From: a virus
Virus record (IMG/VR): IMGVR_UViG_3300047300_000798
Span: 1-20,782 of that record
DNA: 20,782 nt
Direction: 5' to 3' (one strand)
Shown in pieces: positions 1 to 6,875 of the stretch. The position numbers and the translations under genes are program-made. Numbering within the stretch: position 1 is the first letter of the stretch; each line of letters opens with the position of its first letter. The notes below the pieces were generated by a model. The model did not search any database. It saw only the letters and a list, made by a program, of their open reading frames with translations, and was not told where the DNA came from.

Positions 1-341
1 AATTTATTCTTATCATCAAAGTTAGCACGTGCTGTATTAAAGATAACATGGTTATGAGGATTGGCAGTCACTTTCTTTAGGTGATTGACCATGTTCGGCA
101 TTGGTTTAGATTCTTTATTAAATTTCTCAGCATTTCTAAACTCACCAAAGTCATAGCTATGACCATGAGGTAGCTTATGATTGTTAAACTCTTGATTGCT
201 CAAAGTCTTTACAACCTTACCATGTGGATCCTTTACATGGATCTGAGCCGTAGTATGCATCAGTGTATCATCAATATCAAATACATGGAGTGACTTCTTC
301 TGAGATACACCTTCGGTAATGAATTCTTTAAAGCTGATCAT
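1..341 (-). CDS. HAD-superfamily phosphatase-like protein with capsid-targeting-like N-terminus (partial, C-terminus outside window)
   Basis: The first 113 residues are present; the rest lies beyond position 1. The start ATG shares one base with the TAA stop of the upstream gene, so the two are probably translationally coupled. HAD motif I is clear: FDIDDT at residues 21-26, with D22 and D24 as expected nucleophile and acid/base and T26 following. Residues 99-104 (VIFNTA) fit HAD motif II with T103. Known HAD phage enzymes of this type include polynucleotide 3'-phosphatases and nucleotidases; the substrate here cannot be read. The N-terminus MISFKEFITE followed by G matches the T4 gp21 prohead-protease cleavage rule [L/I]-x-E|[A/G/S] at residues 8-11. 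I infer that the first ten residues are a capsid-targeting peptide removed during head maturation. Sure of the HAD fold, moderately sure of the targeting. Confidence 0.8.
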   Translation of the reverse strand, partial: MISFKEFITEGVSQKKSLHVFDIDDTLMHTTAQIHVKDPHGKVVKTLSNQEFNNHKLPHGHSYDFGEFRNAEKFNKESKPMPNMVNHLKKVTANPHNHVIFNTARANFDDKNK

Positions 342-1531
342 TATTGTCTCGCTGCAAAGTTCTGTTTGCTAAATTCTGCTCTATCAACAATCTTTGTTGG
401 TCTATTATTTACCACAGCAACATATCCCTCTGGCTTTGATTCTTGACCGTTGATAGTTGTTTTAAATGTTGGACTTGCTGCCATTGCATGGTTTTGAATA
501 TCTTTAGCCTGCTGAAGTTCGTGATGAATCTGAAACACTTTATCAATTGTATCTGAGTGAGCTCTTAAAGTACCAAGTTGGTTATTCATTGCCTGAGTCT
601 TGCGATCAATCGCAGCTGGTGTTTTAACTTTAGCTATCTCTTTTTGATGCTGAGCCTGAACGTGATCATAAAGATCAGCTGAATTAGGGGTTGTACCTTC
701 TCTTACAGTCTTATTGATATATGTTTTAATATGATCTAAGTGAGGCTCTATCTTCTTATACTCTTCTGGTTTCATACTTCTATGAACCTCATCAGCCTGA
801 GCCATGTGCTCTTGAAAATCTGCTTGACGTGCAGGAGTATAGTCGGATTTAGATGGATCGTATTTGTTATTAATTAGATGCACATCTGGGTGCTGGTTGA
901 AATGTGAAAGATCTGGATCGTAATCAGCTTTCATAGTTTCAAAGTTACCACCTTTATAACCAGTATGCACAGCAATACCAAACTGAGACTGAGCAATCTT
1001 CTGACCTTCTTCTGAATTAGCAGGTGCGTGATACTCAACTAGATTTGGTTTAAAGCTATGTACTTTTCCATTTGTTGTCACATCACCGTGAGGATTGGTG
1101 TCTGAATGAATACCAGAATGCATTACATCACCTTGATATATGCCTGTTGGAGGAGCTATCTTAGGTAGATGGTACAATGCTAAATTTAGTTTATTAACTA
1201 GGCCAGGAGCATGACCATGATTCTTTTGAACATCGTCATAGTCGTAATTTAGTTTAGGATCTTTATTGAATGCTGACTTAGTTGCAACAAAGAACTGGCC
1301 AGTAGCTGGATGGTGACCAAATACAATTGAAGGACTTCCATCCATCTTTTCATATAAAGCAGCACCACCTTTTTGACCTGTCAACGTCTTATGAACTGCA
1401 TTGAGAGTATTCTTAGCATGCTGGTACCCCTCAGCACCAGCATTAAGTACATGGTCTTCTGCATGCTCAAGATGAGTCAACTTTTCTTCATTGGCTGCAG
1501 ACTCTCTTAGCAGAGTAAATATGTGACGCAT
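341..1531 (-). CDS. KxDG nucleotidyltransferase-like (ligase-fold) protein with capsid-targeting-like N-terminus
   Basis: A 396-aa protein. Residues 61-65 read EKMDG, the KxDG motif I of ATP-dependent DNA/RNA ligases and capping enzymes, where K62 would be the adenylated lysine. Further ligase-like blocks are FVATKS (81-86), GIYQGDVM (130-137, in the place of motif III) and FGIAVHTGY (184-192, in the place of motif IIIa). The C-terminal half (about 230-350) is helical and charged, unlike a standard OB-fold ligase tail, so ligation itself is unproven. I recall similar proteins in marine T4-like phages under a DUF label (probably DUF6267), from memory only. The first ten residues, MRHIFTLLRE then S, fit the gp21 cleavage rule. 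The start follows an AGGAC ribosome site embedded in the last codons of the preceding gene. It sits between a nuclease-like and a phosphatase-like gene, which suggests nucleic-acid end processing. Confidence 0.75.
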   Translation of the reverse strand: MRHIFTLLRESAANEEKLTHLEHAEDHVLNAGAEGYQHAKNTLNAVHKTLTGQKGGAALYEKMDGSPSIVFGHHPATGQFFVATKSAFNKDPKLNYDYDDVQKNHGHAPGLVNKLNLALYHLPKIAPPTGIYQGDVMHSGIHSDTNPHGDVTTNGKVHSFKPNLVEYHAPANSEEGQKIAQSQFGIAVHTGYKGGNFETMKADYDPDLSHFNQHPDVHLINNKYDPSKSDYTPARQADFQEHMAQADEVHRSMKPEEYKKIEPHLDHIKTYINKTVREGTTPNSADLYDHVQAQHQKEIAKVKTPAAIDRKTQAMNNQLGTLRAHSDTIDKVFQIHHELQQAKDIQNHAMAASPTFKTTINGQESKPEGYVAVVNNRPTKIVDRAEFSKQNFAARQ

Positions 1532-1532
1532 T

Positions 1533-2537
1533 TTAATGTCCTAGTGTTTTCTTTAGTTTCATTGCACCTTCATCTGTGCCAATATTAGTATGTGATTTAT
1601 CTAGCTTAGTAAGACTAAATTGAACAGTACGCTTATCAGGGTTATCTGTTTTTTGACGAGTACGGAAACGGCCTTCACCATGCAACACTGGTAGTCCAAG
1701 TTTATGCATATCCTTATGTTCACTCATACCAGCTCTAAAAGTACCATGTGTATCGATGTGAGCAACATCAACATGGTGATCACGCATATACGCATGAGCA
1801 GGTGCTGCGCTGGTATGGTCAGAGTAGAAACCACCCTTGTTAGTAGTTCCAGGTGGTTCAGTATCGTTAAGATGTTGTAATAGAGATTTTGTTTTACCGT
1901 TTACTGTAACATTAGCGCTTTCAACATGCTGAGCATATTCAGGACGCTTTGCACGTGCTTTTGCATCAATATGCCAGTGTCCAGTTTCAGGATGACGAGA
2001 AAGAGTTATTTGACCAAATGCAGTACTCTTAATATCAGACTTATGCTCACCTTGGATTGCTCCCTTGGCACCCTCGGTACCACCAATACGTTTTTCTTTG
2101 AAGCCGCGTTTATCAATTAAATGGAAGTCGTTGTCGCCAGTGAAGCCAGCACCACTTCCCCTCATTAAACCATGTTTATTGAGATGCTGGGCTAGTTGTC
2201 CTTCTTGTTCCAAGCCTTTATTCTTTCGTGCAGAGGATGCTGGCTTTAATAACTTATTAGTAGGTACAGAGTGAGAATGATCCGATCCTTGAACCTGAAC
2301 GATGGCATGGTGCACATCTTTGCCGCTTGGATTTTGTTTTACTTCATGGCCAACAACCGTCACTTTTTGACCAGCCTTTAATGGTCCATGTTCAGTAGCC
2401 ATTTCATGACTGTCGACAGCATGTTTACTACCGCCTGGCAAGTAAGGTGTTATATATTGTTTAGTATGACGAGCAGCACTCATGCCTGATGCTTGCATGG
2501 CTTTTTGCTCGAATAAGTAATTTTTGAATGATTTCAT
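1533..2537 (-). CDS. PD-(D/E)xK nuclease-like protein with SH3-like N-terminal part and capsid-targeting-like N-terminus
   Basis: A 334-aa protein starting at the ATG at 2537. The open frame extends 26 codons further, but that stretch crosses a terminator and the late promoter, and the ATG at 2537 has a good AGGAG site 5-9 bases upstream. Residues 1-10 (MKSFKNYLFE) match the T4 internal-protein targeting pattern. Residues 51-99 look like a small beta-barrel (GQKVTVVGHE then AIVQVQG and KLLKP). Residues 108-180 carry a candidate restriction-endonuclease core: E110, D137 in NDFHL, E164-H-K166, and Q176 in FGQITL. That is a D...ExK...Q arrangement typical of PD-(D/E)xK enzymes; this assignment is inference from spacing. 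The protein is basic and rich in His and Lys, like T4 internal proteins. It is the first gene of a three-gene late cassette. Confidence 0.7.
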   Translation of the reverse strand: MKSFKNYLFEQKAMQASGMSAARHTKQYITPYLPGGSKHAVDSHEMATEHGPLKAGQKVTVVGHEVKQNPSGKDVHHAIVQVQGSDHSHSVPTNKLLKPASSARKNKGLEQEGQLAQHLNKHGLMRGSGAGFTGDNDFHLIDKRGFKEKRIGGTEGAKGAIQGEHKSDIKSTAFGQITLSRHPETGHWHIDAKARAKRPEYAQHVESANVTVNGKTKSLLQHLNDTEPPGTTNKGGFYSDHTSAAPAHAYMRDHHVDVAHIDTHGTFRAGMSEHKDMHKLGLPVLHGEGRFRTRQKTDNPDKRTVQFSLTKLDKSHTNIGTDEGAMKLKKTLGH

Positions 2538-2540
2538 AAC

Positions 2541-2561
2541 AGCTCCTAGTTTACTAGAGCT
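2541..2561 (-). promoter_or_regulatory. Ribosome-site-sequestering hairpin overlapping the late promoter start region
   Basis: The minus-strand RNA from 2561 to 2541 forms an imperfect inverted repeat. AGCUC (2561-2557) pairs with GAGCU (2545-2541) and UAG (2556-2554) pairs with CUA (2549-2547), with G2546 bulged and a UAAA loop. The AGGAG ribosome site (2547-2543) lies wholly in the 3' arm. The late promoter predicts a start near 2555, which would remove most of the 5' arm. Read-through RNA should therefore be closed and late-initiated RNA open for translation. Confidence 0.55.
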
Positions 2562-2568
2562 ATTTATA
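2561..2568 (-). promoter_or_regulatory. T4-type late promoter (TATAAATA)
   Basis: An exact TATAAATA on the minus strand, the T4 gp55/gp33-dependent late consensus, lies 23 bases upstream of the ATG at 2537 and just after the terminator of the previous unit. No matching -35 hexamer is seen 17 bases upstream (CACTTC), so it looks late-specific rather than sigma70. Predicted RNA start is about 2555. It would drive the three genes with capsid-targeting-like N-termini. Confidence 0.75.
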
Positions 2569-2571
2569 TCA

Positions 2572-2595
2572 TAAAAAAACCCACCGAAGTGGGTT
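2572..2595 (-). terminator. Intrinsic terminator with UUCG tetraloop
   Basis: On the minus strand AACCCAC (2595-2589), loop TTCG, GTGGGTT (2584-2578), then a run of T to about 2573. The C(UUCG)G loop is extra stable. It starts four bases after the ClpP-like stop codon and ends the metalloprotease/ClpP unit. Confidence 0.9.
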
Positions 2596-2598
2596 AAT

Positions 2599-3156
2599 TT
2601 AGCTGAAAATGGCATCTGCTACACCCAAATCTACACATTCCTGCGCAGTAAGCCAAACATCTGATGGAGGTAGTAATTTACGCTTAATCACTTTCTCATC
2701 CATAGAACAGCTTTCTTTCACAATATCAAGCATACGCTGTTTGATATACTTCGTCTCTTTTTCGTATGCTTTTGCGTCGTGTTCTTTACCTTCGTAATAA
2801 GTTGAGAACTGATGACACATAACGCTTGTGTTTCTGGTAACTCTACGACGACCTTTTGCACCAGTAATGAATATCAGAAACGCTGCACTCATTAGCGAAC
2901 CAACCCCAATAGTTGCAATTGGTATCTTACTGGATTGAATCATATCAATCAAACCAAAAGCACTATACAAATCTCCACCAGGACTATTAATCACTAGTGT
3001 AAGTTCTTTGTGTGTTGGATTTATGTTCTCTGACATAATCCATCTAATACAATCACCTATATTTTGTTCATTAATTTCACCAGATAGGTAGAAAGTACCG
3101 CTTTCATACAATATCCAGTCTATATTATCAAATACATTAGTTGCTTCATTATTCAT
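2599..3156 (-). CDS. ClpP-like serine protease (Clp/crotonase fold)
   Basis: A 185-aa protein with the ClpP layout throughout. The oxyanion/strand motif INSPGGD is at 56-62. S90 in MSAAF and H115 in MCHQ are 25 residues apart, exactly as S97 and H122 are in E. coli ClpP. D166 in SDVWLTAQE stands where D171 is, followed by LGVADAIF matching the family's GLVDxI end. GAKGRRR (99-105) matches the GAKGKR stretch of ClpP, so the full Ser-His-Asp triad is kept. Bacterial ClpP works as a tetradecamer with an unfoldase; no ATPase partner gene is seen here. Possible roles are host or phage protein turnover or head processing, neither of which the sequence proves. AGGAA lies before the start. It follows a secreted metalloprotease gene by 10 bases and ends at a terminator. 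Confidence 0.9.
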   Translation of the reverse strand: MNNEATNVFDNIDWILYESGTFYLSGEINEQNIGDCIRWIMSENINPTHKELTLVINSPGGDLYSAFGLIDMIQSSKIPIATIGVGSLMSAAFLIFITGAKGRRRVTRNTSVMCHQFSTYYEGKEHDAKAYEKETKYIKQRMLDIVKESCSMDEKVIKRKLLPPSDVWLTAQECVDLGVADAIFS

Positions 3157-3166
3157 ATAATTCCTA

Positions 3167-3646
3167 TCAAGGGCAGGTTACTTTATCAGCAACGTCAGTC
3201 ACAACTTTATCGCTGGCACCTTGCTTGCGAAGGTACGTGGCTTGTAAGTTATAAGCTTCGCGTTCTTTTTTATACCACACATCACAGGTCTTTGTATTGC
3301 CCTGCTTCATATACTGAACATGGTGAACCATCTCATGAAACAAGATGGATCTCCACACGGGATGCTTAGCATCATAGTCTTCATCAAAATATATAGCACC
3401 GTCATCGTACACGGCAGTTACTACATCGCACTTCTTACTGTTACCACAATACAATGCCTGAAGATCTTTCTCGTTAAGAGAGTACATCCTAGGCATAGGA
3501 ACTGGACCATCATACTTCATCATCTTCTTGGCTTCTTCAAGTAGTGACACCATCGCAGGGGAAGGTGTAATTGTACGCTGCGTCTTAGGAGCAGCATTTG
3601 CTAGGGTTGATACGCATAATAAAATAGCAACAAAAAGGCGTGACAT
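3167..3646 (-). CDS. Exported HExxH zinc metalloprotease-like protein
   Basis: A 159-aa protein starting at 3646. The frame is open 25 codons further upstream, but that region contains the promoter, and the ATG at 3646 begins a classic signal peptide: MSR, then the hydrophobic stretch LFVAILLCVSTL, then ANA before the predicted cut. The mature part has HEMVH at 104-108 (zinc ligands H104 and H108, catalytic E105) and KEREAYNLQATYL around 127-140, whose E128 or E130 may be the third ligand. Four cysteines (67, 73, 121, 158) in the mature part would allow two disulfides in the periplasm. It resembles small conserved HExxH proteins of unknown substrate. It leads the ClpP unit behind a near-consensus sigma70 promoter, so early expression is likely. 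A cell-envelope or superinfection role is possible but unproven. Confidence 0.8.
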   Translation of the reverse strand: MSRLFVAILLCVSTLANAAPKTQRTITPSPAMVSLLEEAKKMMKYDGPVPMPRMYSLNEKDLQALYCGNSKKCDVVTAVYDDGAIYFDEDYDAKHPVWRSILFHEMVHHVQYMKQGNTKTCDVWYKKEREAYNLQATYLRKQGASDKVVTDVADKVTCP

Positions 3647-3739: not shown

Positions 3740-4189
3740 TTATTCGAATTGCAACTTTCCGGTTGCATAGCATTCAGAAAGGAAGTCGTAGTACAGGTCC
3801 TCATCCATGCTGAATGCCTCCTGCTCCCACGGCTGATCTATGTACTCGACGTTCCTATACCTCTTTCCTTTCCACACATCAACAAGATCATCTTTCACAT
3901 ATATCACTTTGAGTTCTTTAAGAGCATACTGCTTTACATGGACAATTTCATGAGCTAATGTGATGAGAGATAACTCTAACGGCATTCCATTTTTAAGCTC
4001 AATAATGTATCGATTTTTATCACTGGGTTCGCACGATCCTTCAGAATCGATAACATCACGCCCAATAACATCAATTAGTATTTTAGAATACTTAGAAGGT
4101 GGAAGCAGTCGTTGCAAGTAGAATTCAGTAGCTTCACGAATGAATTTACTCAGTGTCCTGTTTTTGAACTTTCTTGTTTTTACTTTCAT
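3740..4189 (-). CDS. Cytosolic HExxH (SprT-like?) zinc metalloprotease-like protein
   Basis: A 149-aa protein without a signal peptide. LAHEIVHVKQY contains the zinc-binding HExxH (H80, E81, H84), and PWEQEAF supplies E122 or E124 as a candidate third ligand about 40 residues later, as in SprT-like and other gluzincin-type families. The N-terminal 25 residues are basic and the C-terminus is acidic. It lacks the zinc-ribbon of full SprT, so the family name is tentative. It overlaps the 3' end of the small membrane-protein gene by 44 bases and is the last gene of the gp43-UvsX-gp41 run. Substrate unknown. It is one of three different small HExxH proteins in the window. Confidence 0.75.
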   Translation of the reverse strand: MKVKTRKFKNRTLSKFIREATEFYLQRLLPPSKYSKILIDVIGRDVIDSEGSCEPSDKNRYIIELKNGMPLELSLITLAHEIVHVKQYALKELKVIYVKDDLVDVWKGKRYRNVEYIDQPWEQEAFSMDEDLYYDFLSECYATGKLQFE

Positions 4190-5724: not shown

Positions 5725-5869
5725 ATTGTTCCAATTTAATTACACGAGCACCGTTAGGTCTTTTTCCAAGGTAGTCAAGTAGTTCTCTATCATTAAAGAA
5801 ATACCTGAAACCTATCTCACTCTTCAGATTCTGAAACGTGATCTTGTACTGCTCCGACTTGGGATCCAT
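5687..5869 (-). CDS. Small protein overlapping both uvsX and gene 41
   Basis: A 60-aa frame starting at the ATG at 5869, which has AAAAGGA about 10 bases upstream; an earlier ATG at 5890 would add 7 residues. It overlaps the last 53 bases of uvsX and the first 38 of gene 41 and is the only open reading through the otherwise 92-base gap 5725-5816, unusually long for this packed run. The product (KRPNGARVIKLEQ, then DRETNTF) looks like a normal small globular protein rather than a random shadow frame. No family recognised. The overlaps at both ends keep confidence moderate. Confidence 0.5.
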   Translation of the reverse strand: MDPKSEQYKITFQNLKSEIGFRYFFNDRELLDYLGKRPNGARVIKLEQYDRETNTFQPIK

Positions 5870-6875
5870 AACTATATTTTCCTTTTGCATATTGCTCTAG
5901 CTGCTCCAATACCGTTTCGGTAAAGTATTGTTCAGGATTATTGTTGATCTCTTTACCAAATACCTTACGGCCATCTGGTAATTCAAAACGTGTAGATACT
6001 TTCTTAAAGATACCAGATTCTTCTGCCAGATCCAATAAACCAAAGTACCTATCTAGTCCTTTATCGTAAGTAAGTAACACAGTTGCGTCTTGGTTCTCTT
6101 TTGAGAGTCTCGACTTGTATGTTTTGATCTTGATTTGGTTACCAATGATGTCGCCGTCTCCATCTTTTTCTTTCTTTTTGGAGAGCATAGCAATAGTGCT
6201 AGCCGCGTATTTGAGACCTGTTCCGCCTCCGAGCTCTTTTGTGGGTACATAGGATCCGATCACCTCATAGACATGGTTAGTAACAAGCATTGGTACTTTC
6301 ACCTTTGCCAGCTTTAATGTCAGAACACGGAAAGCAGCTTTAATAACTTGCGACTTTGTCATGTCCCTGACATCTTTACCATCAAGAGAATCTTCCATCT
6401 CTTTTGATGTTGACAGTAATCCTAAGCTATCCAATACAAACATCATCTTTGGACGTGTATCTTCAGGCTGCTTCTCATATGCTTCTAGTAGCTTTAGAGC
6501 ATGAGTTTTAAACTTTTGAATTGTATCTGGTTCAGCAATAATGACACGTGTTGTATCAATACCGCGTGATTCCATCATTGCTTTCGTGACCGCCGCTTCG
6601 GTGTCGTAGTAGACGACGGCAGCGTTTGGGTTCTTGTCAAGGAAGGCTCTAACGATACCAAGTACGAAGAAAGTTTTACCAGTAGCGGACTCTCCTGCAA
6701 AAGCAGTAATCTTGTTATCAGGTACGCCGCCATAGATGCTACCAGAGAGAAGAGCGTTGAGAATATAGCTGCCAGTATCAATACAACCAGAGTACTCAGC
6801 ACTACCACCGCCGTCACTGGCCAAATAAGTGTCCTCATCACCAATCTCCTTAATTAAACTTTTCAAAAAACTCAT
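5817..6875 (-). CDS. uvsX: UvsX, RecA-like recombinase
   Basis: A 352-aa strand-exchange protein (T4 UvsX is 391). Walker A is GESATGKT at 61-68, the Walker B strand MMFVLDSLG at 144-152, and the L2-type DNA-binding segment ELGGGTGLKYAAS at 214-226. VVYYDTEAA (87-95) supplies the catalytic-glutamate strand. UvsX polymerises on single-stranded DNA and starts recombination-dependent replication together with UvsY and gp32, which are not in this window. The start has AAGGAAG and overlaps the upstream gene by an ATGA. The acidic tail SESEE resembles the acidic C-terminus of RecA-type proteins. Confidence 0.95.
   Translation of the reverse strand: MSFLKSLIKEIGDEDTYLASDGGGSAEYSGCIDTGSYILNALLSGSIYGGVPDNKITAFAGESATGKTFFVLGIVRAFLDKNPNAAVVYYDTEAAVTKAMMESRGIDTTRVIIAEPDTIQKFKTHALKLLEAYEKQPEDTRPKMMFVLDSLGLLSTSKEMEDSLDGKDVRDMTKSQVIKAAFRVLTLKLAKVKVPMLVTNHVYEVIGSYVPTKELGGGTGLKYAASTIAMLSKKKEKDGDGDIIGNQIKIKTYKSRLSKENQDATVLLTYDKGLDRYFGLLDLAEESGIFKKVSTRFELPDGRKVFGKEINNNPEQYFTETVLEQLEQYAKGKYSYGSQVGAVQDHVSESEE

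Follow-up and report, generated by a model that had tools for sequence, protein, structure and literature searches.

We found that the left edge of the DNA analysed here, a 20,782-base IMG/VR fragment from a T4-like freshwater phage (the window), carries three genes lying almost end to end as one tight operon, and that this operon very probably encodes internal head proteins: enzymes that would be targeted to the head by a ten-residue leader, cut by the prohead protease gp21, packaged and injected. The minus strand carries nearly every gene of the window, and on it the operon runs from a nuclease-like 334-aa protein through DUF6267 to a HAD protein (Table 1). Upstream, the minus-strand order is a ClpP-like gene, a terminator hairpin, the sequence TATAAATA, an AGGAG ribosome site and the nuclease-like start codon, the hairpin marking the boundary between the leader operon and the gene cluster preceding it. 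The nuclease-like reading frame holds a further in-frame ATG upstream (to 2615); the start at 2537 is the one served by the AGGAG site, and homologs begin at the same start. A search for a near DNA match between the window and named phages found none, and tblastn with the nuclease-like and HAD proteins gave no relatives among named phages.

Table 1. Features of the leader operon and its upstream region (slash, predicted cleavage position)
Feature	Position	Strand	Basis
Intrinsic-terminator-like hairpin AACCCACTTCGGTGGGTT + T run	2573..2597	-	sequence; 3' of ClpP-like gene
T4-type late promoter -10 element TATAAATA (putative)	2561..2568	-	consensus match; 23 nt 5' of nuclease-like start codon
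Leader MKSFKNYLFE/Q of nuclease-like protein	2508..2537	-	sequence, alignment (E10 invariant in 17 sequences), residues 1-10 pLDDT <50
Nuclease-like 334-aa protein	1533..2537	-	model, alignment
Leader MRHIFTLLRE/S of DUF6267	1502..1531	-	sequence, alignment, residues 1-15 pLDDT <50
DUF6267 (PF19782), predicted RNA/DNA-ligase-like covalent nucleotidyltransferase	341..1531	-	profile, alignment, model
Leader MISFKEFITE/G of HAD protein	312..341	-	sequence, homolog N-termini
Putative HAD-superfamily phosphatase, DIDDT motif, N-terminal 113 aa in window	3..341	-	motif, profile; ORF runs off window edge

The sequence-only reading of this DNA had pointed to [L/I]-x-E at residues 8-10 of the three proteins, which is exact in the sequence. 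Three adjacent genes with this motif would arise with a probability of ~4e-5 (background ~1.1% per position), and 4 such genes among the 32 of the window with ~4e-4. In a sample of 875 proteins from related loci (non-redundant at 60%, centred on these families, with gene starts called by script), 57 proteins have an [LI]xE that begins at residue 8; at positions 16-60 the motif begins in 9.5 proteins on average and in 16 at most, whereas [LI]xD and [LI]xK show no position-specific peak. The full leader pattern was found 49 times in the related loci against 0.77 expected, although these counts are inflated and not independent because homologs share descent. Position 4 is aromatic in 77% of the 57 and in 14% of the rest, and position 7 in 74% and 13%, respectively. 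The window leaders have F4/F7 (HAD), F4/Y7 (nuclease-like) and I4/L7 (DUF6267), the last being typical of DUF6267 in the window clade, which lacks the aromatics. When the pattern was run on T4 as a control, it gave seven hits, the presumed gene identities of which include IPII, IPIII, Alt and gp24, all known gp21 substrates; with four known substrates among seven hits, the pattern is therefore informative, albeit not perfectly specific. The window leaders also agree with the signal mapped by mutagenesis of T4 IPIII, where residues 4 and 7 serve targeting and residues 8 and 10 serve processing (PMC9026906).

The claim that no other gene of the window begins in this way did not hold, since UvsX (5817-6875, minus strand) starts with MSFLKSLIKE and thus also has [LI]xE at residues 8-10. 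This match is probably a matter of chance, because other UvsX homologs are without the motif, and UvsX was ruled out as a fourth cargo protein on the same ground; it serves as a warning about the specificity of a short motif. By showing that such a motif can arise by accident, UvsX also lends something to the idea that all the [LI]xE N-termini reflect chance or a generic amphipathic bias at the starts of genes. We consider that idea extremely improbable in view of the position-specific excess described above, the strict retention of L and E around a free middle residue, and the association of the leader with virion proteins detected by mass spectrometry (MS), the latter two being described below.

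Whether homologs lack the leader had been named as a check on the sequence-only reading, and in both families it is kept: a leader ending in hydrophobic-x-E is present in 41 of 41 non-redundant DUF6267 homologs, down to ~22% identity (families together), and in 16 of 16 nuclease-family homologs, with homolog starts picked with some preference for leader-like ones. Alignment of 42 DUF6267 sequences gives at least 90% conservation of L8 and E10, and overall identity is low in this family as in the nuclease family. A simpler count of distinct N-termini with a leader gave 32/33 for DUF6267, 14/14 for the nuclease family, 35/45 for the HAD family (about 10 of the 45 being without an N-terminal leader) and 15/22 for a cytidylyltransferase family that accompanies the operon in relatives. 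Thirteen distinct N-termini of the cyanophage cytidylyltransferase GC190 all keep L and E, with N, T, I, S or V at the position in between. In HTVC008M the strict pattern picked out no protein with a full-length leader, but a short version is present in its DUF6267; in HTVC008M-like marine DUF6267 proteins the leader is reduced to sequences such as MELLNE or MLLVE directly before DKNTHLEH with [LI]xE retained. Bodies that we take to belong to the DUF6321 family follow [LIVM]xE at the end of a leader in three loci (L107, L010, L021) and at the end of other sequence in four (L011, L025, L062, L015). The constant L and E, the short marine forms and these junctions are, at the level of sequence, marks of a protease site. 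The DUF6267 proteins of S-SM1 (GC71) and P-RSM6 have no leader, and therefore not every member of the family is packaged in this way.

Published MS data on related phages link the leader to the virion. S-SM1 virions contain the cytidylyltransferase T4-GC190 (PMC3037559), whose gene lies directly after that of DUF6267 and starts with MKKFSAFLNE/A. In S-CREM2, where 52 virion proteins were detected (PMC10665884), five bear a leader: a SAM hydrolase (MKDFDSFLEE), an APH-like kinase (VKRFDAFLTE), the cytidylyltransferase gp154 (MKNFSSFLTE), gp13 (MKDLHSFLTE) and gp136 (MQTFSMFFSE). No leader occurs among the 178 called genes whose products were undetected (0/178 vs 5/52, p 5e-4); by annotation, there is one among 167, the 55-aa ORF gp175 (p 0.003). 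A virion Cas9-like nuclease of S-CREM2 (OR473000 7704-10313, minus strand, locus L370) has RFASFMAE/A at residues 18-25, possibly a leader behind a longer N-terminus or behind a misannotated start. The S-CREM2 authors proposed that enzymes of this kind travel in the virion and enter the host (PMC10665884), and the passages on the virion cytidylyltransferase in PMC3037559 and PMC10665884 name no packaging signal. In the open-access literature we found no paper in which DUF6267 or the cyanophage cytidylyltransferase is connected with a capsid-targeting leader, and an earlier description is possible. The proposal that the window N-termini are T4-like capsid-targeting leaders is thus supported: they fit the IPIII signal, such leaders are conserved in the three families and in several others, and leaders of this kind mark virion enzymes in S-CREM2 and S-SM1.

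The gene for gp21 lies outside the 20.8-kb fragment. The complete relative G001 (162 kb, with a HAD protein 82% identical) encodes a Peptidase_S77 gp21 (PF03420), and its gp23 has QTLTE/T near the position of FLTE/A in T4 gp23. The gp23 proteins of G003, HTVC008M, G015 and S-SM1 have LFE, LGE, LNE and LTE, respectively, at or near the T4 propeptide site, so that complete or near-complete relatives have gp21 and [LI]xE sites in gp23 alongside the leader. A different protease has to be considered, namely the ClpP-like, head-maturation-like serine protease encoded just upstream (2599-3156, minus strand), which might process the leaders in place of gp21. Its gene is the operon's immediate neighbour, in the window as in G001, and hits 'head maturation protease' PHROGs. 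However, it sits beyond the terminator and the putative late promoter, leader operons in L012, L131 and L155 have no adjacent ClpP-like gene, and the motif corresponds to that cut by T4 gp21; complete relatives encode gp21, and their gp23 has the same kind of site. We therefore regard processing by the ClpP-like protease as very unlikely and favor gp21. The ClpP-like protease is itself without a leader. Also on the minus strand, 3167-3646 and 3740-4189 encode two small proteins in tandem that carry HExVH-type motifs and are putative metallopeptidases; the N-terminus of the first resembles a signal peptide.

The sequence TATAAATA is the late promoter element of T4. Its number in the window is not above chance (3 copies vs 1.9 expected), but the homologous operons of G001, L130, L012 and L013 have it upstream at a comparable spacing, with CATAAATA before the operon in L009, L118 and others. 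In G001, TATAAATA is also found before the tail sheath and scaffold genes. Across the related loci, [TC]ATAAATA lies 15-60 nt upstream of 17 of 54 leader genes as compared to 55 of 815 others (p 2.7e-7). In L121 (2727-3122) and L003 (4222-4644), another gene with a putative late promoter lies just before the operon and encodes the N-terminus MSIDKYSQYISIHE or MAVRKFSSFISLHE, respectively, perhaps a longer variant of the leader.

The bodies behind the leaders were predicted to be enzymes. The model of the 334-aa protein (pLDDT 86) consists of a chromo/SH3-like barrel (~15-103) followed by an HhaI-like PD-(D/E)xK domain (~106-334). VIA-align matched residues 106-334 to HhaI endonuclease (6uke_X) with Z 11.1 and rmsd 3.9 over 180 aligned residues, the next match scoring 6.2, and Foldseek alone gave no significant match for this model. 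The putative catalytic residues E112 (17/17), D137 (15/17), E164 (13/17) and K166 (14/17), the last two forming ExK, are conserved. For DUF6267 (AlphaFold2, mean pLDDT 91), VIA-align placed Naegleria RNA ligase (6vt9) first, with Z 10.3 and rmsd 3.6 over 185 aligned residues, and the matches listed were nucleic-acid ligases; Foldseek alone found no significant match to the model, and a sequence search against PDB returned nothing useful. K62, D64 and G65 (motif I, KxDG), E368 and G369 (motif IV) and K380 (motif V) are present in 41-42 of 42 sequences. These results support the prediction that DUF6267 is an RNA-ligase-like nucleotidyltransferase. The HAD protein contains FDIDDTL; its Pfam matches are weak and below curated cut-offs, and the related full-length protein of G001 hits PHROG 415 'polynucleotide kinase' at 4e-9. 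The three assignments made from sequence, a PD-(D/E)xK-like protein, a KxDG nucleotidyltransferase-like protein and a HAD phosphatase, are thus supported by predicted folds and conserved motifs in the first two cases, and the third is a putative HAD phosphatase from its DIDDT motif and the match of the relative. Two variants were seen in related loci: a DUF6267 homolog (L088:4206-5279) in which K and D of motif I appear to be replaced by H and N and the leader is kept, perhaps a packaged but catalytically dead protein, and a HAD domain of the same family (L066:4657-6948) that lies between nucleotidyltransferase-like and Nudix domains and has no leader.

The order of the operon is conserved in relatives, and in the close relatives L003 and L121 it goes on with a leader-bearing cytidylyltransferase, so that all four genes have leaders. 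DUF6267 is fused to a cytidylyltransferase-like domain in leader-bearing proteins of three loci (L155:4834-6597, L062:8080-9930, L154:4804-6585), and in two others a cytidylyltransferase-like domain is joined to a P-loop kinase (L140:6001-7893, L150:5983-7851), the L140 protein having a weak Zeta_toxin match. The fusions in L140 and L150 recall NadR-type or end-repair fusions. Both kinds of fusion suggest that the parts work together.

In the favored scenario, the T4-type late promoter would drive the operon late in infection, and the first ten residues, with aromatic or hydrophobic residues at positions 4 and 7 followed by [L/I]-x-E, would bind the prohead core. After cleavage by gp21 behind E10, the mature enzymes would remain with the DNA in the head and enter the next host along with it. 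Core binding, cleavage, retention in the head and injection are inferred by analogy with IPIII and Alt; packaging in the head of this phage appears highly probable, and injection into the host probable, though slightly less so. Once inside, the enzymes may work on nucleic acid and nucleotides already at time zero: phosphatase and ligase would repair ends left by host nucleases, the cytidylyltransferase of relatives would replenish NAD or some other nucleotide, and the nuclease would turn on host DNA or on competing DNA. In T4, Pnkp and Rnl1 repair host-cut tRNA, and the pair of phosphatase and ligase recalls that repair. We regard such a role in nucleic-acid repair or attack as a guess with roughly even chances.

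Alternatively, the leader may target the proteins to the prohead core and be cut there, and the enzymes may act in assembly or stay in the head without being injected. T4 IPIII also affects head morphogenesis (PMC9026906), and the leader data do not separate injection from retention. However, predicted nuclease, ligase-like and phosphatase folds with conserved catalytic residues are not those of scaffold proteins, and T4 Alt and the internal proteins with such leaders are injected, which makes a core or maturation role without injection unlikely and leaves injection of the enzymes as the preferred reading. More broadly, we lean, with some reserve, towards the view that in freshwater and marine T4-like phages the gp21 leader serves generally to tag proteins for export, giving a pre-packed enzyme kit that would act in the host before phage gene expression, and that the contents of this kit may be read from genomes through the leader alone. 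The kit would comprise a restriction-type nuclease, an RNA-ligase-like enzyme, an end-phosphatase and a cytidylyltransferase/NMNAT, to which cyanophages would add a SAM hydrolase, a kinase and perhaps a Cas9-like nuclease. Injected phage proteins are normally learned only through virion proteomics; a leader readable in sequence would yield candidate time-zero enzymes for counter-defence or host takeover in abundant uncultured phages. It would also give a reason for enzymes reported in virions and so far unexplained there, the cyanophage cytidylyltransferase among them, and would hint at what DUF6267 and an orphan nuclease family do.

The nuclease-like protein shares with HhaI restriction endonuclease the predicted fold of residues 106-334 and the D..ExK pattern, whereas it has an extra N-terminal barrel, and no partner methyltransferase was noted in the window. 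DUF6267 resembles RNA ligases such as Naegleria RNA ligase and T4 Rnl2 and Rnl1 in its predicted fold and in motifs I, IV and V, but it carries a large helical insertion before motif IV and has no detectable sequence similarity to them. The virion cytidylyltransferase of cyanophages (T4-GC190; S-CREM2 gp154) is leader-bearing and MS-detected and in S-SM1 lies downstream of DUF6267, although the DUF6267 of S-SM1, unlike that of the window, is without a leader. Like T4 IPI-IPIII and Alt, the operon combines a ten-residue leader, hydrophobic or aromatic residues at positions 4 and 7, [LI]xE at 8-10 and a putative late promoter with diverse bodies behind one leader. The T4 internal proteins are small, with IPI-III acting as inhibitors of type IV restriction, and Alt is an ADP-ribosyltransferase, whereas the bodies here are predicted to be an HhaI-like nuclease, an RNA-ligase-like enzyme and a HAD phosphatase, joined by a cytidylyltransferase in relatives, within one operon. 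The polyvalent injected proteins of phages and conjugative elements (PMC5512222) embody the same idea of several enzymes delivered with invading DNA; here, in contrast, the enzymes are separate polypeptides each with a gp21-type leader, fused versions being found in L155, L062 and L140.
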